Positions 21,228-32,458 of a DNA stretch of 64,000 bases are shown here, one piece after another. The stretch is taken from positions 128,339-192,338 of the forward strand of contig DOQR01000002.1 in NCBI GenBank assembly GCA_003514385.1, written 5' to 3'. A program made the translations under genes and the position numbers. Below the pieces are notes generated by a model. The model was not told the DNA's origin. It searched no databases and saw nothing but the letters and a program-made list of their open reading frames with translations. The DNA is from Oscillospiraceae bacterium (GTDB lineage Bacteria; Bacillota; Clostridia; Oscillospirales; Acutalibacteraceae). How positions within the stretch are numbered: position 1 is the stretch's first letter; each line of letters opens with the position of its first letter.

Positions 21228-21285
21228 TATAGTATTATCTATAATGGGTAGATATTTGAGAAAACAATGCAAAGAGGGTAAGACT

Positions 21286-22821
21286 GTGGCAAGACAGGAA
21301 TCAAAAGTTTCGTCATTCTTTCAGAAGATAGGCCCGATGGTGGGCTACAATGCCGCGAGCATACTTTTCGGCGGCGGCGGATACATCATCTCGCTCTATT
21401 TTCTGTCGTTTTTGACCGAGGTCGAAAAGCTCAGCGTCGATCAGGCGGGTATGGTTATCGCCATGGCTCATATCTGGGACGCCGTCACCGACCCCGTCAT
21501 GGGTATTATAACCGACCGCACGCGTTCGAAATACGGCAGACACAGAAGATATCTGCTCTGGGGCGTTATTCCGATAGCCATCTCGTATTTCTGCCTGTGG
21601 AACTCGTTCGGCATTTCCGCGACCGGCAACAAGACCGCGACGATGCTCTACTACATGCTCGCGTATATGCTCTATAACACGGCGCTGACTCTCGTCACCG
21701 TGCCGCATGTTGCGATGCTGCCCGTTATCGCGCCCGATTATTCCCTGCGCACTCAGTATAACTCCGTGCAGTATATAATGAACTCCGTCGGCATGGTTTC
21801 GTCGTTCCTGCTCGTGTCGCTGTCGCTCGGCTTTACGAACATGGAGATGACCGCCGCGTCAAGACCGAAGTTCATGTTCTTCGGCGCAGTGTTGTGCTTG
21901 TGGTTCTCACTGCCGCTGCTCGTGACTTTCAAATGCACGAAAGAGCCGAGCTCGCTCGACATGAAGCTGCCGCCTTTCAACGCGACTATGCTCTTTGAAG
22001 AGTACAAGCAGGTTTTCCGCAACAAGGCGTTCAGACGCTATTTTGTCCTGAGCTCGATGTACACCATGGCAAAGGGCTTCTATGCAAACTCCAACCAGTA
22101 TTTCATCAAATACAGTGCCCAGCGCTTCGGCTATTTCAACACCCTGCAAACGATTGCGGGTGCGGCTGAGGCATCCGGCTTCCCCGTCAATTATCTGCTG
22201 ACTATGAAAAAGGGCAAGCAGCTGTGCGGAAAGCTCCTGACTCCGCTCATGGCGGCGGGACTTATCATAAACCTGTTCATCGGCAAGAGCACTCCGCTCT
22301 GGGTCGTCATTGTTTCGATAATCCTCTATAACTTCGGCTTCTCCGGCCCCGGATTTACCGCCACAAATATCCAGCCCGATGTCACGGATGTTGACGAGAT
22401 GATAACCGGACGCCGCCGCGAGGGCGTTATCTCGACCTTCAACACGCTCATCAAAAAGACCATAAACGGTCTCATGAGCGCGTTCACCGGATTTATTCTT
22501 AAAGGCTTCGGCTTCCGTACCGGCGCAGAGGGCGCGAATGCCCTCGAACAGACCGCTAAGGGTATATTCGGACTGAAGGTGACTTACTGCATCCTGCCTC
22601 TCATCTTCGTCGGCCTCGTCTATGTCTGCGTGTTCACCTATAAGATGACCCGCGAGGATCACAAGATGATAACCGAGGCTATAAAAGAGAAGAAAGAGAC
22701 AGGCAAGTGCTCACTGACCCCCGAGCAGATGAAACGCTGCGAGGAGATAGCGGGTCAGAGCTTCGGCGATATGTGGATCGGCAAACCTTCCGCAGAGACC
22801 CTTGTGACCGAGCTTGACTAA
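21286..22821 (+). CDS. GPH-family (MelB-like) sugar:cation symporter
   Basis: 511 aa with about twelve membrane helices. The GTG at 21286 is preferred because AGAGGG lies 7 bases upstream, whereas the in-frame ATG at 21244 has no ribosome site. The GPH signature is clear: IWDAVTDPVMGIITDRTRSK plus YGRHRRYLLWG (Asp residues for cation binding), and IQPDVTDVDEMITGRRREG late in the protein. The substrate is probably a glycoside, pentoside or hexuronide; it cannot be fixed from sequence. It is followed by lepA on the same strand after 24 bp. Confidence 0.9.
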   Translation: MARQESKVSSFFQKIGPMVGYNAASILFGGGGYIISLYFLSFLTEVEKLSVDQAGMVIAMAHIWDAVTDPVMGIITDRTRSKYGRHRRYLLWGVIPIAISYFCLWNSFGISATGNKTATMLYYMLAYMLYNTALTLVTVPHVAMLPVIAPDYSLRTQYNSVQYIMNSVGMVSSFLLVSLSLGFTNMEMTAASRPKFMFFGAVLCLWFSLPLLVTFKCTKEPSSLDMKLPPFNATMLFEEYKQVFRNKAFRRYFVLSSMYTMAKGFYANSNQYFIKYSAQRFGYFNTLQTIAGAAEASGFPVNYLLTMKKGKQLCGKLLTPLMAAGLIINLFIGKSTPLWVVIVSIILYNFGFSGPGFTATNIQPDVTDVDEMITGRRREGVISTFNTLIKKTINGLMSAFTGFILKGFGFRTGAEGANALEQTAKGIFGLKVTYCILPLIFVGLVYVCVFTYKMTREDHKMITEAIKEKKETGKCSLTPEQMKRCEEIAGQSFGDMWIGKPSAETLVTELD

Positions 22822-24741: not shown

Positions 24742-25326
24742 TTATTTTTTGGCGGCAACGCTTTTCTGCATACTGTCAAGCTTAGCAAGAACGGCGGCGT
24801 ACATATCGCATAGTGAAAGCGAAATGAAGTCGGCGGACTGCGAAAAATCGTTGTTGACCCATTCCTCGATTGTGCCCAAGGAGCCCTTGACCATAAATGT
24901 GTATGTCGTGTTTAGGACCAGGTCGTCCAAGTCGGGGAATTTTTGCCGCCACTCGTTCGTTATGTCCTGTCTGTTTATTTCGCAGCACTTGTCTAAAAAC
25001 TGTTTGCTGCCGTATTTGCCGAACAGCGCGTCGCAAAACGAACGCTCGGCCTCCACGGTCTCTATTATTTTGTTTATCCGGGGGAAGTCGCTTTTTGTGT
25101 AGTTGCAGTTTCTCACGGCATCGCAGAGGCGCTCGTAGACAATGCCTTCTATTTGATCCAAAAGGTCGTAAACATCGGCATAGTGGGCATAGAAAGACCC
25201 TCTGTTGACGTTGGCTGCTTGGCAGAGTTCCGTTACCGAAATTTTGTCTATGGGCTTTTGCTTGAGCAGTGAAATGAAGCTCTCGCAAAGCAGCTGCTTT
25301 GTTATTAAAATGCGGCGGTTTTCCAT
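24742..25326 (-). CDS. TetR/AcrR-family transcriptional regulator
   Basis: 194 aa. Start ATG at 25326 with GGAGG 9 bases upstream; the frame runs on further upstream but without a ribosome site. The N-terminal helix-turn-helix reads ISVTELCQAANVNRGSFYAHY, the usual TetR form, followed by DVYDLLDQIEGIV. The C-terminal ligand domain is of the DhaS-like type common in Firmicutes. It is divergent from two very short peptide genes, and the region between holds two inverted repeats (25350-25383 and 25401-25421) that are likely operators. Repression of itself and of the peptide genes is inferred. The inducer is unknown. Confidence 0.9.
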   Translation of the reverse strand: MENRRILITKQLLCESFISLLKQKPIDKISVTELCQAANVNRGSFYAHYADVYDLLDQIEGIVYERLCDAVRNCNYTKSDFPRINKIIETVEAERSFCDALFGKYGSKQFLDKCCEINRQDITNEWRQKFPDLDDLVLNTTYTFMVKGSLGTIEEWVNNDFSQSADFISLSLCDMYAAVLAKLDSMQKSVAAKK

Positions 25327-25349
25327 GAAATCTTGCCTCCGTAGGTTGT

Positions 25350-25383
25350 CAACTGAACAAAAAAGCCCCGATTTGTTCAGTTG
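25350..25383. promoter_or_regulatory. Inverted repeat, probable TetR operator 1
   Basis: CAACTGAACAAA (25350-25361) and TTTGTTCAGTTG (25372-25383) are perfect 12-bp arms around a 10-bp GC-rich spacer. It lies between the regulator start codon and the peptide promoter. A terminator role is less likely because no T-tract follows on the plus strand and it sits in the regulator's 5' leader. Confidence 0.6.
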
Positions 25384-25400
25384 CGCACAAATCATAAATT

Positions 25401-25421
25401 TTTGTTGATTGACGCAACAAA
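25401..25421. promoter_or_regulatory. Inverted repeat overlapping the -35 box, probable operator 2
   Basis: TTTGTTG (25401-25407) and CAACAAA (25415-25421) flank ATTGACG, so the -35 box TTGACG is inside the palindrome. It shares the TTTGTT/AACAAA core with the first inverted repeat. Confidence 0.55.
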
Positions 25422-25437
25422 GCGTAGAGATTATACT
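25409..25437 (+). promoter_or_regulatory. Promoter of the twin micro-peptide operon
   Basis: TTGACG (25409-25414), 17 bp, TATACT (25432-25437), about 48 bp upstream of the first peptide start codon. Confidence 0.72.
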
Positions 25438-25485
25438 ATAAATGCAGTTATAAGTCAATCTTACAATGCGAAGGGAGGGGACGAA

Positions 25486-25602
25486 ATGGAAGTGGCATTG
25501 GAACTGTTGCTTAAGGCACTCGAGTGGTCTGGCAAGGCACTTTATTGGGTTACTATAGGCCCGATAATAGAGCTTATAAAGCTGATCTTCGGAATCGCTT
25601 AA
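25486..25602 (+). CDS. 38-aa amphipathic peptide (unknown function)
   Basis: ATG at 25486 with a near-perfect ribosome site AAGGGAGGGG. The product starts MEVALELLLKALEWSGKALY and ends in a hydrophobic segment (GPIIELIKLIFGIA). Glu at 2, 6, 13 and 29 and Lys at 10, 17 and 32 are spaced so that one helix face is charged and the other is Leu/Ile/Val-rich. There is no Cys, no signal peptide and no leader cleavage motif. The strong promoter, the SD and a second, similarly built peptide 22 bp downstream argue that it is real. A membrane-active or membrane-associated peptide is plausible (leaderless bacteriocin, PSM-like or a toxin), but I recognise no family. Confidence 0.7.
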   Translation: MEVALELLLKALEWSGKALYWVTIGPIIELIKLIFGIA

Positions 25603-25624
25603 ATTTAACGAGGAGGGAAAAGTA

Positions 25625-25711
25625 ATGGAGATCATCCAGAGAATTTTAGAAGCGTACTTTGAGTATGTAAGATTTATTCTTGAGCACCTTTTCTGGTTCA
25701 TTCCGAAATAA
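25625..25711 (+). CDS. 28-aa amphipathic peptide (unknown function)
   Basis: ATG at 25625 preceded by GAGGAGGGAAA, an excellent ribosome site. The peptide starts MEIIQRILEAYFEYVRFILE and ends HLFWFIPK. Glu2, Glu9, Glu13 and Glu20 with Arg6, Arg16 and Lys28 give an amphipathic helix rich in Ile, Leu and aromatic residues. Net charge is about -1, as for the 38-aa partner. It is too short for standard gene callers. It lies in the same transcript, which ends at the hairpin at 25751-25788. Function unknown; the pair may act together in the membrane. Confidence 0.68.
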   Translation: MEIIQRILEAYFEYVRFILEHLFWFIPK

Positions 25712-25750
25712 GAGGGACTGCATTTTAATGCAGAGCTGAAGAAAAATTCA

Positions 25751-25798
25751 AAGGTCATAATTCGAGCGGTTGCTGCGATTATGACCTTCTTTTTTTAT
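25751..25798 (+). terminator. Terminator of the micro-peptide operon
   Basis: AAGGTCATAAT (25751-25761) pairs with ATTATGACCTT (25778-25788), extended by a few bases in the loop, followed by CTTTTTTTT. A small palindrome at 25718-25733 precedes it. Confidence 0.85.
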
Positions 25799-25816: not shown

Positions 25817-27169
25817 TCAGTTTTTCGGGCTGCCCGCGGCCGCGCGCATCGTCATGACGACTGTAAAGGTGTCTCCCTTGTCGTCGGTCACAAGCCGTCC
25901 GCCGTATTTTTCGGCGGCGTCTCTGAGAATCCTCAATCCGTAGCCGTGCTCGCCCGTGCGGCTCTTTTTCTTGTCCTCATAGTCCGGAGCCACATTGTTT
26001 TCGCCGGTTATGTAGAGCATCCCGTCGCTCTCGTCTGTAAAGCTCTTTATCTTTACATATCTTTTCCCGTCGATTGCCTTCGCCGCGTTTATCGCGTTGT
26101 CGAAAATGTTGACGTAAGCCTTACATATATCTATTTCTTCTATGTCGAGAGTCTCCGGAACGCGCAGGTCAAAGTCGAAATCGATTTCGTTCTTTCTGCA
26201 TTCAGCCGCCTTGTTCGAGGCTATCGCATTTACGAGCGTGTTTTGGCAGAAGCGCTCTATTTTTATGTCCGCAACCTCTGCTTTGAGCTGAGAGAGCATC
26301 TTCTTTGCGGACTCCTTATCGCTGTCCGTACCGTTCTCCATTATCTCGCAGGCGGTCTGTACCATGTTGGCGAGGTCGTGACGTATCTTTCTCGCCTCAA
26401 CGCTGTTTTGCTCGACATTCTTGTAGTATTCGAGGTTGACGCTGTTCTGATATTCCTGCATCTTCAGCGCCTCGCGCAGCTTTTCGTTCTGCGAAGAGCG
26501 GTTCATGACATAGAAAAGTATGACGTCCGCGGCGATACTGAAAATTGCGACGACGGCAAAAACTATTATTGTTGTGCGATCGCGGTCTTTAAAAAGGGAG
26601 AGAGGGCTGTTTTCGCCCGCCCAATCGAAGTGATTTAACAGGATCATGCAGGTGTCGAGCAGCAGCATTTGACTCAGCGGAAAGATGATAAATGCAAGCA
26701 TCGAAGTCGGTTTTATTGACCCGCCCTCAAGCTTTCGCTTTCTGAAATATGTAAACACAAGAAAAACCACTGTGTACACGAGCAGAAACGGCGTGAGAAC
26801 CAGATTGGCCTCAGGGTCGTTGCTGCCTATTCCAAACAGATTTAACATCGAAGCCACAACGGCGGTGAAGCTGGATTCCAATGCAAAAATTGCTATCGAC
26901 ACAAATGCCTTCGTTCGGAACTTGTCCTTGTATAGCACCGCCGCGCAGATGAAATAATACGCGAGCGGAAGCAGAACCAGAAACGACGGGGCAACAAAGG
27001 TCACGAATTTCTGCGAGACAACCAAAAATACAAACGGAACGGTGGTTATCAAAAAGACAAGGTGTTTGTTAAATTTCGGTGTCAGGTTATACCAAAGAAA
27101 GCCGCCCTGAAGCAGAGCGAGCATTATGTTGTTGACATACCATAAAAATTCGTAAATAGATTCGGACAT
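25817..27169 (-). CDS. AgrC-like GHKL sensor histidine kinase (orphan)
   Basis: 450 aa. ATG at 27169 with GGGAGGGG upstream is chosen over the longer frame from 27184. The first 220 residues hold six or so membrane helices with no obvious extracellular domain. A linker with a coiled coil (QNEKLREALKMQEYQNSVNL) leads to the phosphoacceptor motif ARKIRHDLANMVQ, then the GHKL ATPase with an N-box (VNIFDNAINAA) and GEHGYGLRIL. This organisation is that of AgrC/ComD-type peptide sensors. No LytTR or other response regulator and no AgrB/AgrD lie nearby. It follows the HAD phosphatase gene by 23 bp and is probably cotranscribed. Confidence 0.88.
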   Translation of the reverse strand: MSESIYEFLWYVNNIMLALLQGGFLWYNLTPKFNKHLVFLITTVPFVFLVVSQKFVTFVAPSFLVLLPLAYYFICAAVLYKDKFRTKAFVSIAIFALESSFTAVVASMLNLFGIGSNDPEANLVLTPFLLVYTVVFLVFTYFRKRKLEGGSIKPTSMLAFIIFPLSQMLLLDTCMILLNHFDWAGENSPLSLFKDRDRTTIIVFAVVAIFSIAADVILFYVMNRSSQNEKLREALKMQEYQNSVNLEYYKNVEQNSVEARKIRHDLANMVQTACEIMENGTDSDKESAKKMLSQLKAEVADIKIERFCQNTLVNAIASNKAAECRKNEIDFDFDLRVPETLDIEEIDICKAYVNIFDNAINAAKAIDGKRYVKIKSFTDESDGMLYITGENNVAPDYEDKKKSRTGEHGYGLRILRDAAEKYGGRLVTDDKGDTFTVVMTMRAAAGSPKN

Positions 27170-27192
27170 TGTTTCCCCTCCCACAAAATCCG

Positions 27193-29749: not shown

Positions 29750-31588
29750 ATGTCAAAGGTTATAGGTATTGACTTAGGTACAACAAATTCATGTGTAGCA
29801 GTTATCGAGGGCGGCGAGCCCGTCGTTATCCCCAACGCCGAGGGCGCAAGAACCACGCCTTCCGTCGTCGCATTCGGCAAGACCGGCGAGAGACTTGTCG
29901 GCCAGGTCGCAAAGCGTCAGGCTATCACAAATCCCGACAGAACCGTCTCCTCCATCAAGAGACAGATGGGTTCCGACTACAAAGTTAAGATTGATGACAA
30001 GAAGTACACCCCTCAGGAGATTTCCGCAATGATCCTGCAGAAGCTCAAAACCGACGCAGAGTCTTATCTCGGCGAGAAGGTCACCGAGGCTGTTATCACC
30101 GTTCCCGCTTACTTCACCGACTCCCAGCGTCAGGCTACAAAGGATGCCGGTAAGATAGCAGGCCTTGAGGTCAAGAGAATAATCAACGAGCCCACAGCGG
30201 CGGCTCTTGCTTACGGTATCGATAAAGAGAACGATCAGAAGGTCATGGTTTATGACCTCGGCGGCGGCACATTCGATGTCTCCATCATCGAGATGGGCGA
30301 TGGCGTTCAGGAAGTTCTTGCAACTGCCGGTAACAACCGCCTCGGCGGCGACGATTTCGACCAGAGAGTTATCGACTGGATCGCCGACGAGTTCAAGAAG
30401 AGCGAGGGCGTTGACCTTCGCGGCGACAAGATGGCTATGCAGAGACTGAAAGAGGCTGCCGAGAAAGCGAAGATCGAGCTTTCCAATGTCACCACTTCCA
30501 CCATCAACCTGCCCTTCATCGGCATGAATTCGGACGGCACTCCGCTCAACCTTGAGATGACCCTCACCAGAGCTAAGTTCAACGAACTGACCGCAGACCT
30601 CGTTGAAGCGACAATGGGTCCTGTTCGCCAGGCTATCTCGGACTCCGGTCTCAAGACTTCCGATCTTCACAAGATCCTTATGGTCGGCGGCTCGTCCCGT
30701 ATCCCCGCTGTTCAGGAAGCTGTTAAGAAGTACACCGGCGTCGAGCCCTTCAAGGGCATCAACCCCGATGAGTGCGTCGCTATCGGTGCTGCTATCCAGG
30801 GCGGCGTCCTTGCAGGCGATGTCAAGGGACTGCTTCTTCTTGATGTTACCCCGCTGTCACTCGGCATCGAGACCATGGGCGGCATAAACACCAAGATCAT
30901 CGACAGAAACACCACAATCCCTGTCAAGAAGAGCCAGATCTTCTCGACCGCAGTTGATAATCAGCCCTCAGTTGAAGTCCATGTCCTCCAGGGCGAGAGA
31001 GACTTCGCTAAGGATAACAAGACCCTCGGCGTGTTCCACCTCGACGGCATCATGCCCGCGCGCAGAGGCGTGCCGCAGATCGAAGTTACCTTCGATATCG
31101 ATGCAAACGGCATAGTCCATGTTTCCGCAAAGGATCTGGGCACCGGCAAGGAGCAGTCGATCTCCATCACCTCTTCGTCCAACATGTCCAAGGAGGATAT
31201 CCAGAAGGCTGTTGACGAGGCTGAGAAGTTCGCTGAGGAAGACAAGAAGCGCCGCGAGGAAGTTGATATCAGAAACGGCGCAGACCAGATGGTCTATCAG
31301 TGCGAGAAGCTCGTCAGCGAGGACGGCGACAAGTTCTCCGAGGACGACAAGAAGGACATCAACGACAAGGTCGATGCCCTTAAAGAAGCCCTCAAGGGCG
31401 AGGATATCAACCTCATCAAGTCCCGCCAGGAGGAGCTCACCGCTAAGTTCTATGAGATCTCCGAGAAGGTCTACAAGGCAGCAGCCGAGCAGGCTCAGGC
31501 TCAGCAGGGCGCCGACGGCGCTCAGCCCGGCAATGATGCGGGATACACTGAGGCGAATTATACCGACGTCCCCGAAGACAACGACTAA
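29750..31588 (+). CDS. dnaK: Chaperone protein DnaK (Hsp70)
   Basis: 612 aa, normal length for Gram-positive Dna[21 protein letters not shown] starts the ATPase domain; [28 protein letters not shown] and [11 protein letters not shown] are its phosphate and adenosine motifs. The substrate-binding domain begins around [14 protein letters not shown] and the lid ends in a Gln/Ala/Glu-rich disordered tail. GGAGG lies 8 bases upstream of the ATG. It is followed by tandem 146-bp repeats and a REP-associated transposase rather than directly by dnaJ. Confidence 0.98.
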
Positions 31589-31589
31589 G

Positions 31590-31940
31590 TCGGCAATGCG
31601 TAATTTCGCGCGATACGGCGTTGTGAGAACCTGAGAACTTGGTCACGTACCGACGTACGCTCCCGCGTTCTCAGAACCTCACGCCTTGTCTCGCACAAAA
31701 TTCCGCTATTGCCTGCCTTTCGCAGGAATTGACAGCCGGCAATGCATAATTTCGCGCGATACTGCGTTGTGAGAACCATGCCCGTTCGGTCACGTACCAA
31801 CGTACGCTCCCGCGTTCTCAGAACCTCACGCCTTGTCTCGCACAAAATTCCGTGATTGCCTGCCTTTCGCAGGAATTGACAGTCGGCAATGCGTAATTCT
31901 GCGTGATACTGCGTTGTGAGAACCATGCCCGTTCGGTCAC
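31590..31940 (+). repeat. Two and a half tandem copies of a 146/147-bp repeat behind dnaK
   Basis: Unit 1 starts at 31590 (TCGGCAATGCGTAATTTCG), unit 2 at 31736 and unit 3 at 31883, the last stopping near 31940. The copies differ at few positions. Each contains GTTGTGAGAACC, the palindrome-like CGTACxxACGTACG, CCCGCGTTCTCAG and ends with TTTCGCAGGAATTGACAG. Inverted segments (TGAGAAC / GTTCTCA) allow each unit to fold. No protein-coding role is evident. They lie directly between dnaK and a REP-associated transposase gene. Confidence 0.9.
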
Positions 31941-31972: not shown

Positions 31973-32458
31973 ATGATGATGCCTATGGACACGACGAAAC
32001 CGTCGAGAAAGAAGATTCGCCTTGTTGGATATGACTATTCTTCAAGCGGCGCTTATTTCATAACGATTTGTACCGTGGATAGAAAGCCGTTGCTATGGAA
32101 ACGCTCCGATGCGGATTTCGGGCTTTCTCGCTGCGGCGAAACGGTGAAAACTGCAATTGAGTCAATCGGAAAACACTATGAATGTGTTGCGGTAGACAAA
32201 TATTGCATTATGCCGAACCATGTTCATCTGATTCTTACAATTACCGCCGATGAGTGCGGGCGGATGATATCCGCCCCTACGGTGTCGAATGTTGTGGGCT
32301 CGATGAAGCGGTGGGTCTCAAAAGAACTCGGCGTGTCGATTTGGCAGAAATCATTCTTTGACCGCGTGATACGCGGCGAAAAAGACTATTTAGAAATTTG
32401 GCAATACATTGATGAAAATCCGTTAAAATGGGTTTCGGATGAATTGTATATTGGGTAA
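31973..32458 (+). mobile_element. REP-associated tyrosine transposase (RAYT, Y1/HUH family) gene
   Basis: 161 aa. GAYFITICTVDRKPLL near the start, the HUH motif HVH at residues 83-85 in MPNHVHLIL, and IWQKSFFDRVIRGEKDYLE followed by IWQYIDENPLKW, which carries the likely nucleophile Tyr (Tyr145; Tyr139 is an alternative). These are the marks of RAYT proteins related to IS200/IS605 transposases, which process REP palindromes. No good ribosome site is seen before the ATG at 31973; ATG at 31985 is an alternative. Residues 95-102 (ECGRMISA) are encoded by an exact inverted copy of the REP. It sits between dnaK and dnaJ, 16 bp before the dnaJ start. Confidence 0.92.
32257..32280 (-). repeat. REP-like palindrome, copy 2 (inverted, within the transposase gene)
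   Basis: Exact 24-base reverse complement of 31945-31968. It is in the coding frame of the transposase and encodes the segment around C-G-R-M-I-S-A-P-T. Confidence 0.88.

Follow-up and report, generated by a model that had tools for sequence, protein, structure and literature searches.

In the window, the 64,000-nt stretch of DNA analysed here, a TetR-family regulator gene stands divergently opposite two tiny frames that encode peptides of 38 and 28 amino acids (peptides 1 and 2). From comparisons with LnqR and TisB we class the find with locally controlled small membrane-active peptides, a function that is predicted. Tentatively, and with somewhat less than even confidence, we read the locus as an autoregulated one-component-sensor module, in which a ligand would release a pair of membrane-active helices that act in the producer's own membrane.

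The regulator gene (194 aa, with a TetR_C_8 (PF14278) C-terminal region) occupies 24742-25326 on the minus strand, with its ATG at 25326. On the plus strand, ribosome binding site 1 (GGGAGGG, 25473-25479) lies 6 nt 5' of the ATG of peptide 1 (MEVALELLLKALEWSGKALYWVTIGPIIELIKLIFGIA, 25486-25602), and ribosome binding site 2 (GAGGAGGG, 25610-25617) lies 7 nt 5' of the ATG of peptide 2 (MEIIQRILEAYFEYVRFILEHLFWFIPK, 25625-25711), the stop codon of peptide 1 and the ATG of peptide 2 being 22 nt apart. These are the only two frames 5' of a plus-strand terminator-like element (25751-25796), an 11-bp perfect stem (25751-25761/25778-25788) followed by C and seven T. A terminator scan did not return this element because its 16-nt loop exceeds the scan's loop limit of 8; judging from its A-rich side, it may serve the convergent GHKL gene as well.

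Upstream of peptide 1, a plus-strand promoter-like site (TTGACG-17-TATACT, 25409-25437) matches 10 of 12 consensus positions and a minus-strand site for tetR (TTGACT-17-TATAAT, 25430-25458) matches 11 of 12; their -10 boxes overlap at 25430-25437. A scan of 1301 nt gave five promoter-like sites where 1.5 would be expected; the remaining three are antisense to the peptide unit and score 9/12 each. Nearby are three operator-like palindromes, to which no strand applies: TTGT-N7-ACAA (25346-25360, from a motif scan); TTTGT-N10-ACAAA (25372-25391), which holds the right arm of a perfect 12+12 inverted repeat found by palindrome search (CAACTGAACAAA-N10-TTTGTTCAGTTG, 25350-25383); and TTTGTTG-N7-CAACAAA (25401-25421), which spans the -35 box of the peptide promoter. 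Three of the five matches to the operator-like motif in the 64-kb window thus fall within 76 bp here, the motif having been written after the site was seen. The third palindrome overlies the -35 box of the peptide promoter and, read on the other strand, falls just within the predicted start of the tetR transcript, so that a single dimer bound there could silence both genes. The layout given in the preliminary description, with its consensus-like promoter, two good ribosome sites, frames 22 bp apart, strong terminator and TetR gene divergent across inverted repeats, is all present at these coordinates, the ribosome sites being read directly from the sequence. Control of the peptide promoter by TetR, which it had also proposed, is plausible, with predicted operators over and beside that promoter.

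On the evidence of protein homology, both frames are genuine coding frames and not chance ones. Only three frames of 25-60 aa on both strands of the 64 kb combine a strong SD with an ATG, and two of them are these peptides; the chance expectation of such frames in this 490-nt gap is 0.006, and none of 2000 first-order Markov resamplings held two, with SD patterns that were chosen after seeing the locus. In-frame codon log-odds per codon reached 0.39 for peptide 1, 0.13 for peptide 2 and 0.14 for TetR, and two other sense frames gave -1.13/-0.48 and -0.65/-0.55. One antisense frame of peptide 2 scored 0.04, and synonymous-only scores were weak (peptide 1, 0.11; peptide 2, -0.14; TetR, -0.06), set against a codon table built from 26 genes whose own synonymous-only scores run from 0.02 to 0.47. 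Codon use alone is therefore undecisive, and it is protein homology that decides.

Among 5.8 billion proteins, we found 11 relatives of peptide 1 (E 3.6e-17 to 2.1e-6) and 4 of peptide 2 (E 6.4e-18 to 5.3e-5), so that the earlier reading of real coding frames is sustained by homology and SD statistics, and partly by codon use. The most distant relative of peptide 1, P0044, is 64-68% identical and P0039 is 83-85% identical; both keep the core ALYWVT[IV]GPIIELIK despite changes elsewhere. The intact form, P0037, has 72 members. Four homologues (P0034, P0035, P0036 and P0041) begin 28 codons upstream, within what is promoter here, and comparison of their translations with the 73-aa frame implies no indel from operator 3 to the ATG in 4/4. 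Changes in this read-through stretch fall at codons 2, 5, 8, 9, 12 and 28, mostly in the -35/-10 spacer and just before the ATG; P0034 also alters the end of the left arm of operator 3 and one base triplet of the -10.

Several homologues are altered or broken. P0042 (1 member) reads as frame-shifted in the N-terminus of peptide 1, and P0045 (1 member) as having lost an internal part of peptide 1 but kept peptide 2 whole. Six core residues are changed in P0041 (1 member) and three consecutive residues in P0038 (9 members), and the last part of peptide 2 is shifted in P0048 (2 members); the end of P0043 presumably derives from a sequencing adapter, which it resembles. These forms, the shortness of the frames and the weak synonymous codon signal of peptide 2 are what could be cited for chance ORFs in intergenic RNA, or for a regulatory RNA in which the frames are of no consequence. 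We consider this reading very improbable. Against it stand homologues with conservative changes; P0046, in which an implied shift in the spacer between the peptides appears to leave 27 of 28 peptide 2 residues in place; the SD statistics; a search of Rfam that gave no match at gathering score for the locus; and an unremarkable RNA fold of the peptide transcript (z -1.5, 8/100 shuffles).

Computed composition agrees with the Glu2, the lack of Cys and the net charge of -1 first described for each peptide (pI 4.94 and 5.55). AgrD/AIP pheromones have an internal Cys for cyclisation, and an AIP pheromone was rejected since neither peptide contains one. The description of both as amphipathic held for peptide 2, whose hydrophobic moment of 0.50 is reached by 0.2% of shuffles; in peptide 1 the property is weak and not clearly conserved. 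The N-helix of peptide 1 has a moment of 0.33, reached by 5.5% of shuffles, and shuffles score as high in 16% of cases for whole peptide 1, 17% for P0044 and 86% for P0039. Amphipathicity is therefore firm only for peptide 2, and we slightly lowered our confidence in the membrane-helix reading because that of P0039 does not rise above shuffles. The reported match in charge pattern likewise survives in part: read as helices, residues 1-21 of peptide 1 and 1-24 of peptide 2 each confine their charges to a sector of 80 degrees (0.4% and 0.07% of shuffles), and the match fails for the whole of peptide 1 (180 degrees, 10%; whole peptide 2, 120 degrees, 0.3%). AF2, given five alignment rows, predicted peptide 1 as helices 2-22 and 24-35 separated by a kink (pLDDT 92.3, pTM 0.49), and a search of PDB structures with this model found no chain.

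The 80-degree charged sector also fits a self-acting type I-like toxin, a TisB-like charge-zipper pore freed by loss of TetR instead of loss of an antisense RNA, a reading that we hold to be quite improbable. It is favoured by the size class (TisB has 29 aa), a polar stripe on a hydrophobic helix and the C-terminal Lys of peptide 2 (PMC11449926). It is weakened by position K17 of peptide 1, which is K, E or M among homologues and so not conserved, by a peptide 1 that lacks a C-terminal Lys, and by the ordinary transcript fold noted above. Pairing of opposite charges between and within the peptides did not exceed what sign shuffles give (peptide 1 antiparallel to peptide 2, 27%; the other five arrangements, at least 71%), and for this reason no charge zipper is claimed; the charge-zipper model is partly contradicted for TisB itself in PMC11449926.

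Phenol-soluble modulins are marked by sequence relation and a dedicated exporter. It seems to us unlikely that the peptides are secreted through a non-dedicated transporter, under TetR control, as a two-peptide leaderless bacteriocin or a PSM-like surfactant. This reading would suit two small peptides without a leader, one of them clearly amphipathic, in a unit that holds no processing gene, and it has a precedent: the TetR-family protein LnqR positively regulates lnqBCDEF, the production and immunity genes of lacticin Q (PMC6131525). TetR control of a leaderless peptide is therefore already known, and the initial premise that TetR repressors often control adjacent exporters or enzymes, not peptides, is not supported. 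A PDB sequence search with peptide 1 moreover ranked the leaderless bacteriocin aureocin A53 first, matched over the peptide's conserved core (residues 10-31) at a chance-level E of 0.5; neither a five-homologue profile nor P0044, P0039 or P0037 singly repeated it, and kinship was dropped because the top match was not reproducible. Peptide 2 had no match in the PDB sequence search. Charge tells against a leaderless bacteriocin more directly, since the tabulated ones carry +2 to +9 with pI 9.78-11.08 in 33 of 33 cases (PMC6131525, Table 2) and the window peptides are anionic. We recognised no exporter, immunity, protease or modification gene adjoining the peptide unit, nor, among the frames compared with domain models, an adjacent PH-domain gene; transport, PH-domain and immunity genes are not universal in leaderless bacteriocin clusters according to PMC11580447. 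The leaderless bacteriocin first suggested is thus disfavoured by the anionic charge and by an adjacency in which neither exporter nor immunity gene was recognised.

Behind the terminator, a GHKL-domain kinase gene (25817-27184, minus strand; HATPase_c_5, E=7.3e-16), whose N-terminal half is hydrophobic by eye, converges on the peptide unit. Leader-peptide attenuation was rejected, because the terminator and then this convergent gene come next. AcrZ- and KdpF-type small proteins are models for accessory subunits of membrane complexes, and the peptides might similarly belong to, or modulate, a membrane complex already present in the cell, be it a transporter, a protease or the GHKL kinase encoded alongside, a possibility that we regard as real though doubtful. 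Both are small, hydrophobic and predicted to be helical, with conserved small and aromatic residues, and the kinase gene is adjacent; yet that gene lies on the opposite strand behind the terminator, and the transcription unit is without a transporter.

A further neighbour is a gene that we take, by recognition, to be lepA, beyond which lies an MFS_2 transporter gene (21244-22821). Elsewhere in the window, at 31588-31934 and 31973-32458, an IS200-like Y1 transposase-like gene sits between frames that read as dnaK and dnaJ, and this IS200-like region adjoins a pair of 147-bp direct repeats (95%) and a 44-bp sequence in three copies.

The regulator scored 42.1 bits against Pfam TetR_C_8 (gathering 26.1, E=9.7e-11), just under the cut-off for TetR_N (23.5 versus 24) and well below that of the DhaS equivalog TIGR02366 (50.9 versus 129 bits). 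The PDB structure nearest to its AF2 model (pLDDT 91.8) is 4mk6, Probable Dihydroxyacetone Kinase Regulator, with DhaS and MtrR bound to testosterone next; a hydrophobic ligand is plausible. A protein database search returned 30 TetR homologues at E<=1e-3, with full-length relatives at 97% (P0004), 89% (P0005) and 70% (P0013) identity. The peptide relatives and these TetR orthologues (70-97% identical) are known as database protein sequences.

For repression, ligand and effect alike, we infer the following for the autoregulated module. A TetR dimer would bind the palindromes, silencing both promoters, and would release the DNA once it bound a ligand that is small and probably lipophilic. Strongly translated, both peptides would then leave the ribosome and enter the cytoplasmic membrane of the producer itself, where peptide 2 would insert as an amphipathic helix and peptide 1 would form a kinked helix pair packed via its conserved A-x3-SG-x-A-x-Y face and T-x-x-P turn. 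Together the two would act as a local membrane effector, most likely causing a modest change in permeability or potential, or adjusting a membrane protein already in place, for as long as the ligand is present.

Among the genomes searched, the module looks narrow in its sequence distribution, though the regulator's nearest cluster has many members. The genome nearest by LepA among 295 genomes of the order was G222, at 88%. In six stretches around lepA from the genomes nearest by LepA, only lepA itself matched, out of 14 window genes and both peptides. The conserved peptide relatives anticipated in genomes did not appear convincingly with a peptide 1 profile in those searched: it matched 2 of 398 genomes of the family of G222 (E 0.004-0.005), and we put both matches down to chance, as their positions are off-frame or antisense relative to other genes. 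The profile matched 0 of 394 genomes of the order and 0 of 39, 60, 1 and 8 genomes in four genera, counts from overlapping samples in which an empty result, being without a positive control, shows nothing. No relative was found in viral contigs by TetR or the peptide 1 profile, no peptide 1 match in phage and plasmid records, and no match to the 481-nt locus in E. coli genomes. With the TetR alignment as query, a set of species genomes gave 113 stretches in 21 loci, all distant, and TetR queries matched 47 of 295 order genomes at E<=1e-18 and, at E<=1e-10, 132 of 300 family genomes and 10 of 11 in the genus of G222. We take the genomic TetR matches to be paralogues because the best long alignment is 39% identical.

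We scanned 77 related TetR loci, with strands taken from tblastn; 76 were scorable, L070 having too little upstream DNA. A frame passed the SD and hydrophobicity filter at 14 of the 76; 11 of these frames lie inside the nearest large frame, the one at L004 resembles the beginning of a disrupted ABC ATPase, and those of L046 and L047 stand alone. A further 35 of the 76 have a frame of at least 90 aa that ends within 170 nt, without any small frame that passed the filter. By eye, we take the neighbours at related TetR_C_8 loci to be MMPL/RND-type exporters, ABC ATPases and NAD-epimerase-like enzymes.

At both L046 and L047, a 46-aa hydrophobic frame with AAGGAGG faces the TetR gene, with a terminator-like end at L046. 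This micropeptide of 46-47 aa recurs in 4 of 26 genomes of another genus (G543, G472, G772 and, weakly, G776 at E 0.008) and lies opposite a related TetR_C_8 gene in 3 of the 26 (loci L046, L047, L088 and L089). In G772 (L089) the 47-aa form, at 1501-1644, has AAGGAG and a terminator-like end and stands opposite a TetR_C_8 gene scoring 62.7 bits. Over the first 24 codons (of 46/47), L046 and L089 differ at 7 first, 2 second and 11 third positions, most often at the third, giving 5 synonymous and 7 replacement codons. The relative in G776 (L090:1225-1344) is 39 aa long and starts with TTG; no TetR was recognised within 2.8 kb at L090, where a neighbouring frame is, by eye, presumably metal P-type ATPase/CopZ-like. 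By eye, the micropeptide has no evident sequence similarity to the window pair. That TetR_C_8 sensors have been repeatedly recruited for stand-alone micropeptide switches, with the pair and the 46-47 aa peptide as two independent origins, is a conjecture that we rate as rather doubtful.

The peptides match no Pfam, NCBIfam or PHROGs family (12 peptide 1 rows gave two single weak Pfam matches, E 0.09 and 0.27), yet the regulator's nearest cluster, P0004, counts 2069 member sequences. A common gene-calling limit is 90 nt, and the 28-aa peptide 2 falls below it. If the mechanism is right, the locus would be a small, ligand-gated, self-contained membrane effector, and a strong SD with tiny hydrophobic frames opposite TetR_C_8 genes would become a search rule for others. 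Membrane state would then be controlled through a repressor protein at a time set by the ligand; this role has otherwise been described for toxins that an RNA holds back, such as TisB.

In the open PMC literature searched, we found no TetR-divergent micropeptide pair of this kind, and its nearest counterparts each share part of the design. The TetR_C_8 system with the 46-47 aa peptide has a divergent TetR_C_8 gene, a strong SD, a small hydrophobic peptide and a terminator-like end in common with the window, and differs in having one longer peptide instead of a pair and a convergent gene that we take, by eye, to be MFS-like. Other TetR_C_8 regulators (DhaS and the paralogues found here) share the PF14278 domain and many divergent arrangements with the window TetR. 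TisB, an E. coli type I membrane toxin, is like peptide 2 in its size (29 aa) and in the polar stripe along its helix; as described, it is set apart by a charge of +1 and pairing with the RNA istR-1, whereas the window has two peptides of net -1 each and a protein regulator (PMC11449926). In the lacticin Q/LnqR system, as in the window, a TetR-family protein governs the genes of a leaderless membrane-active peptide, but lacticin Q has 53 aa, a charge of +6 and the accompanying lnqBCDEF genes, whereas the window peptides have 38 and 28 aa, a charge of -1 and no such genes recognised adjacent (PMC6131525).
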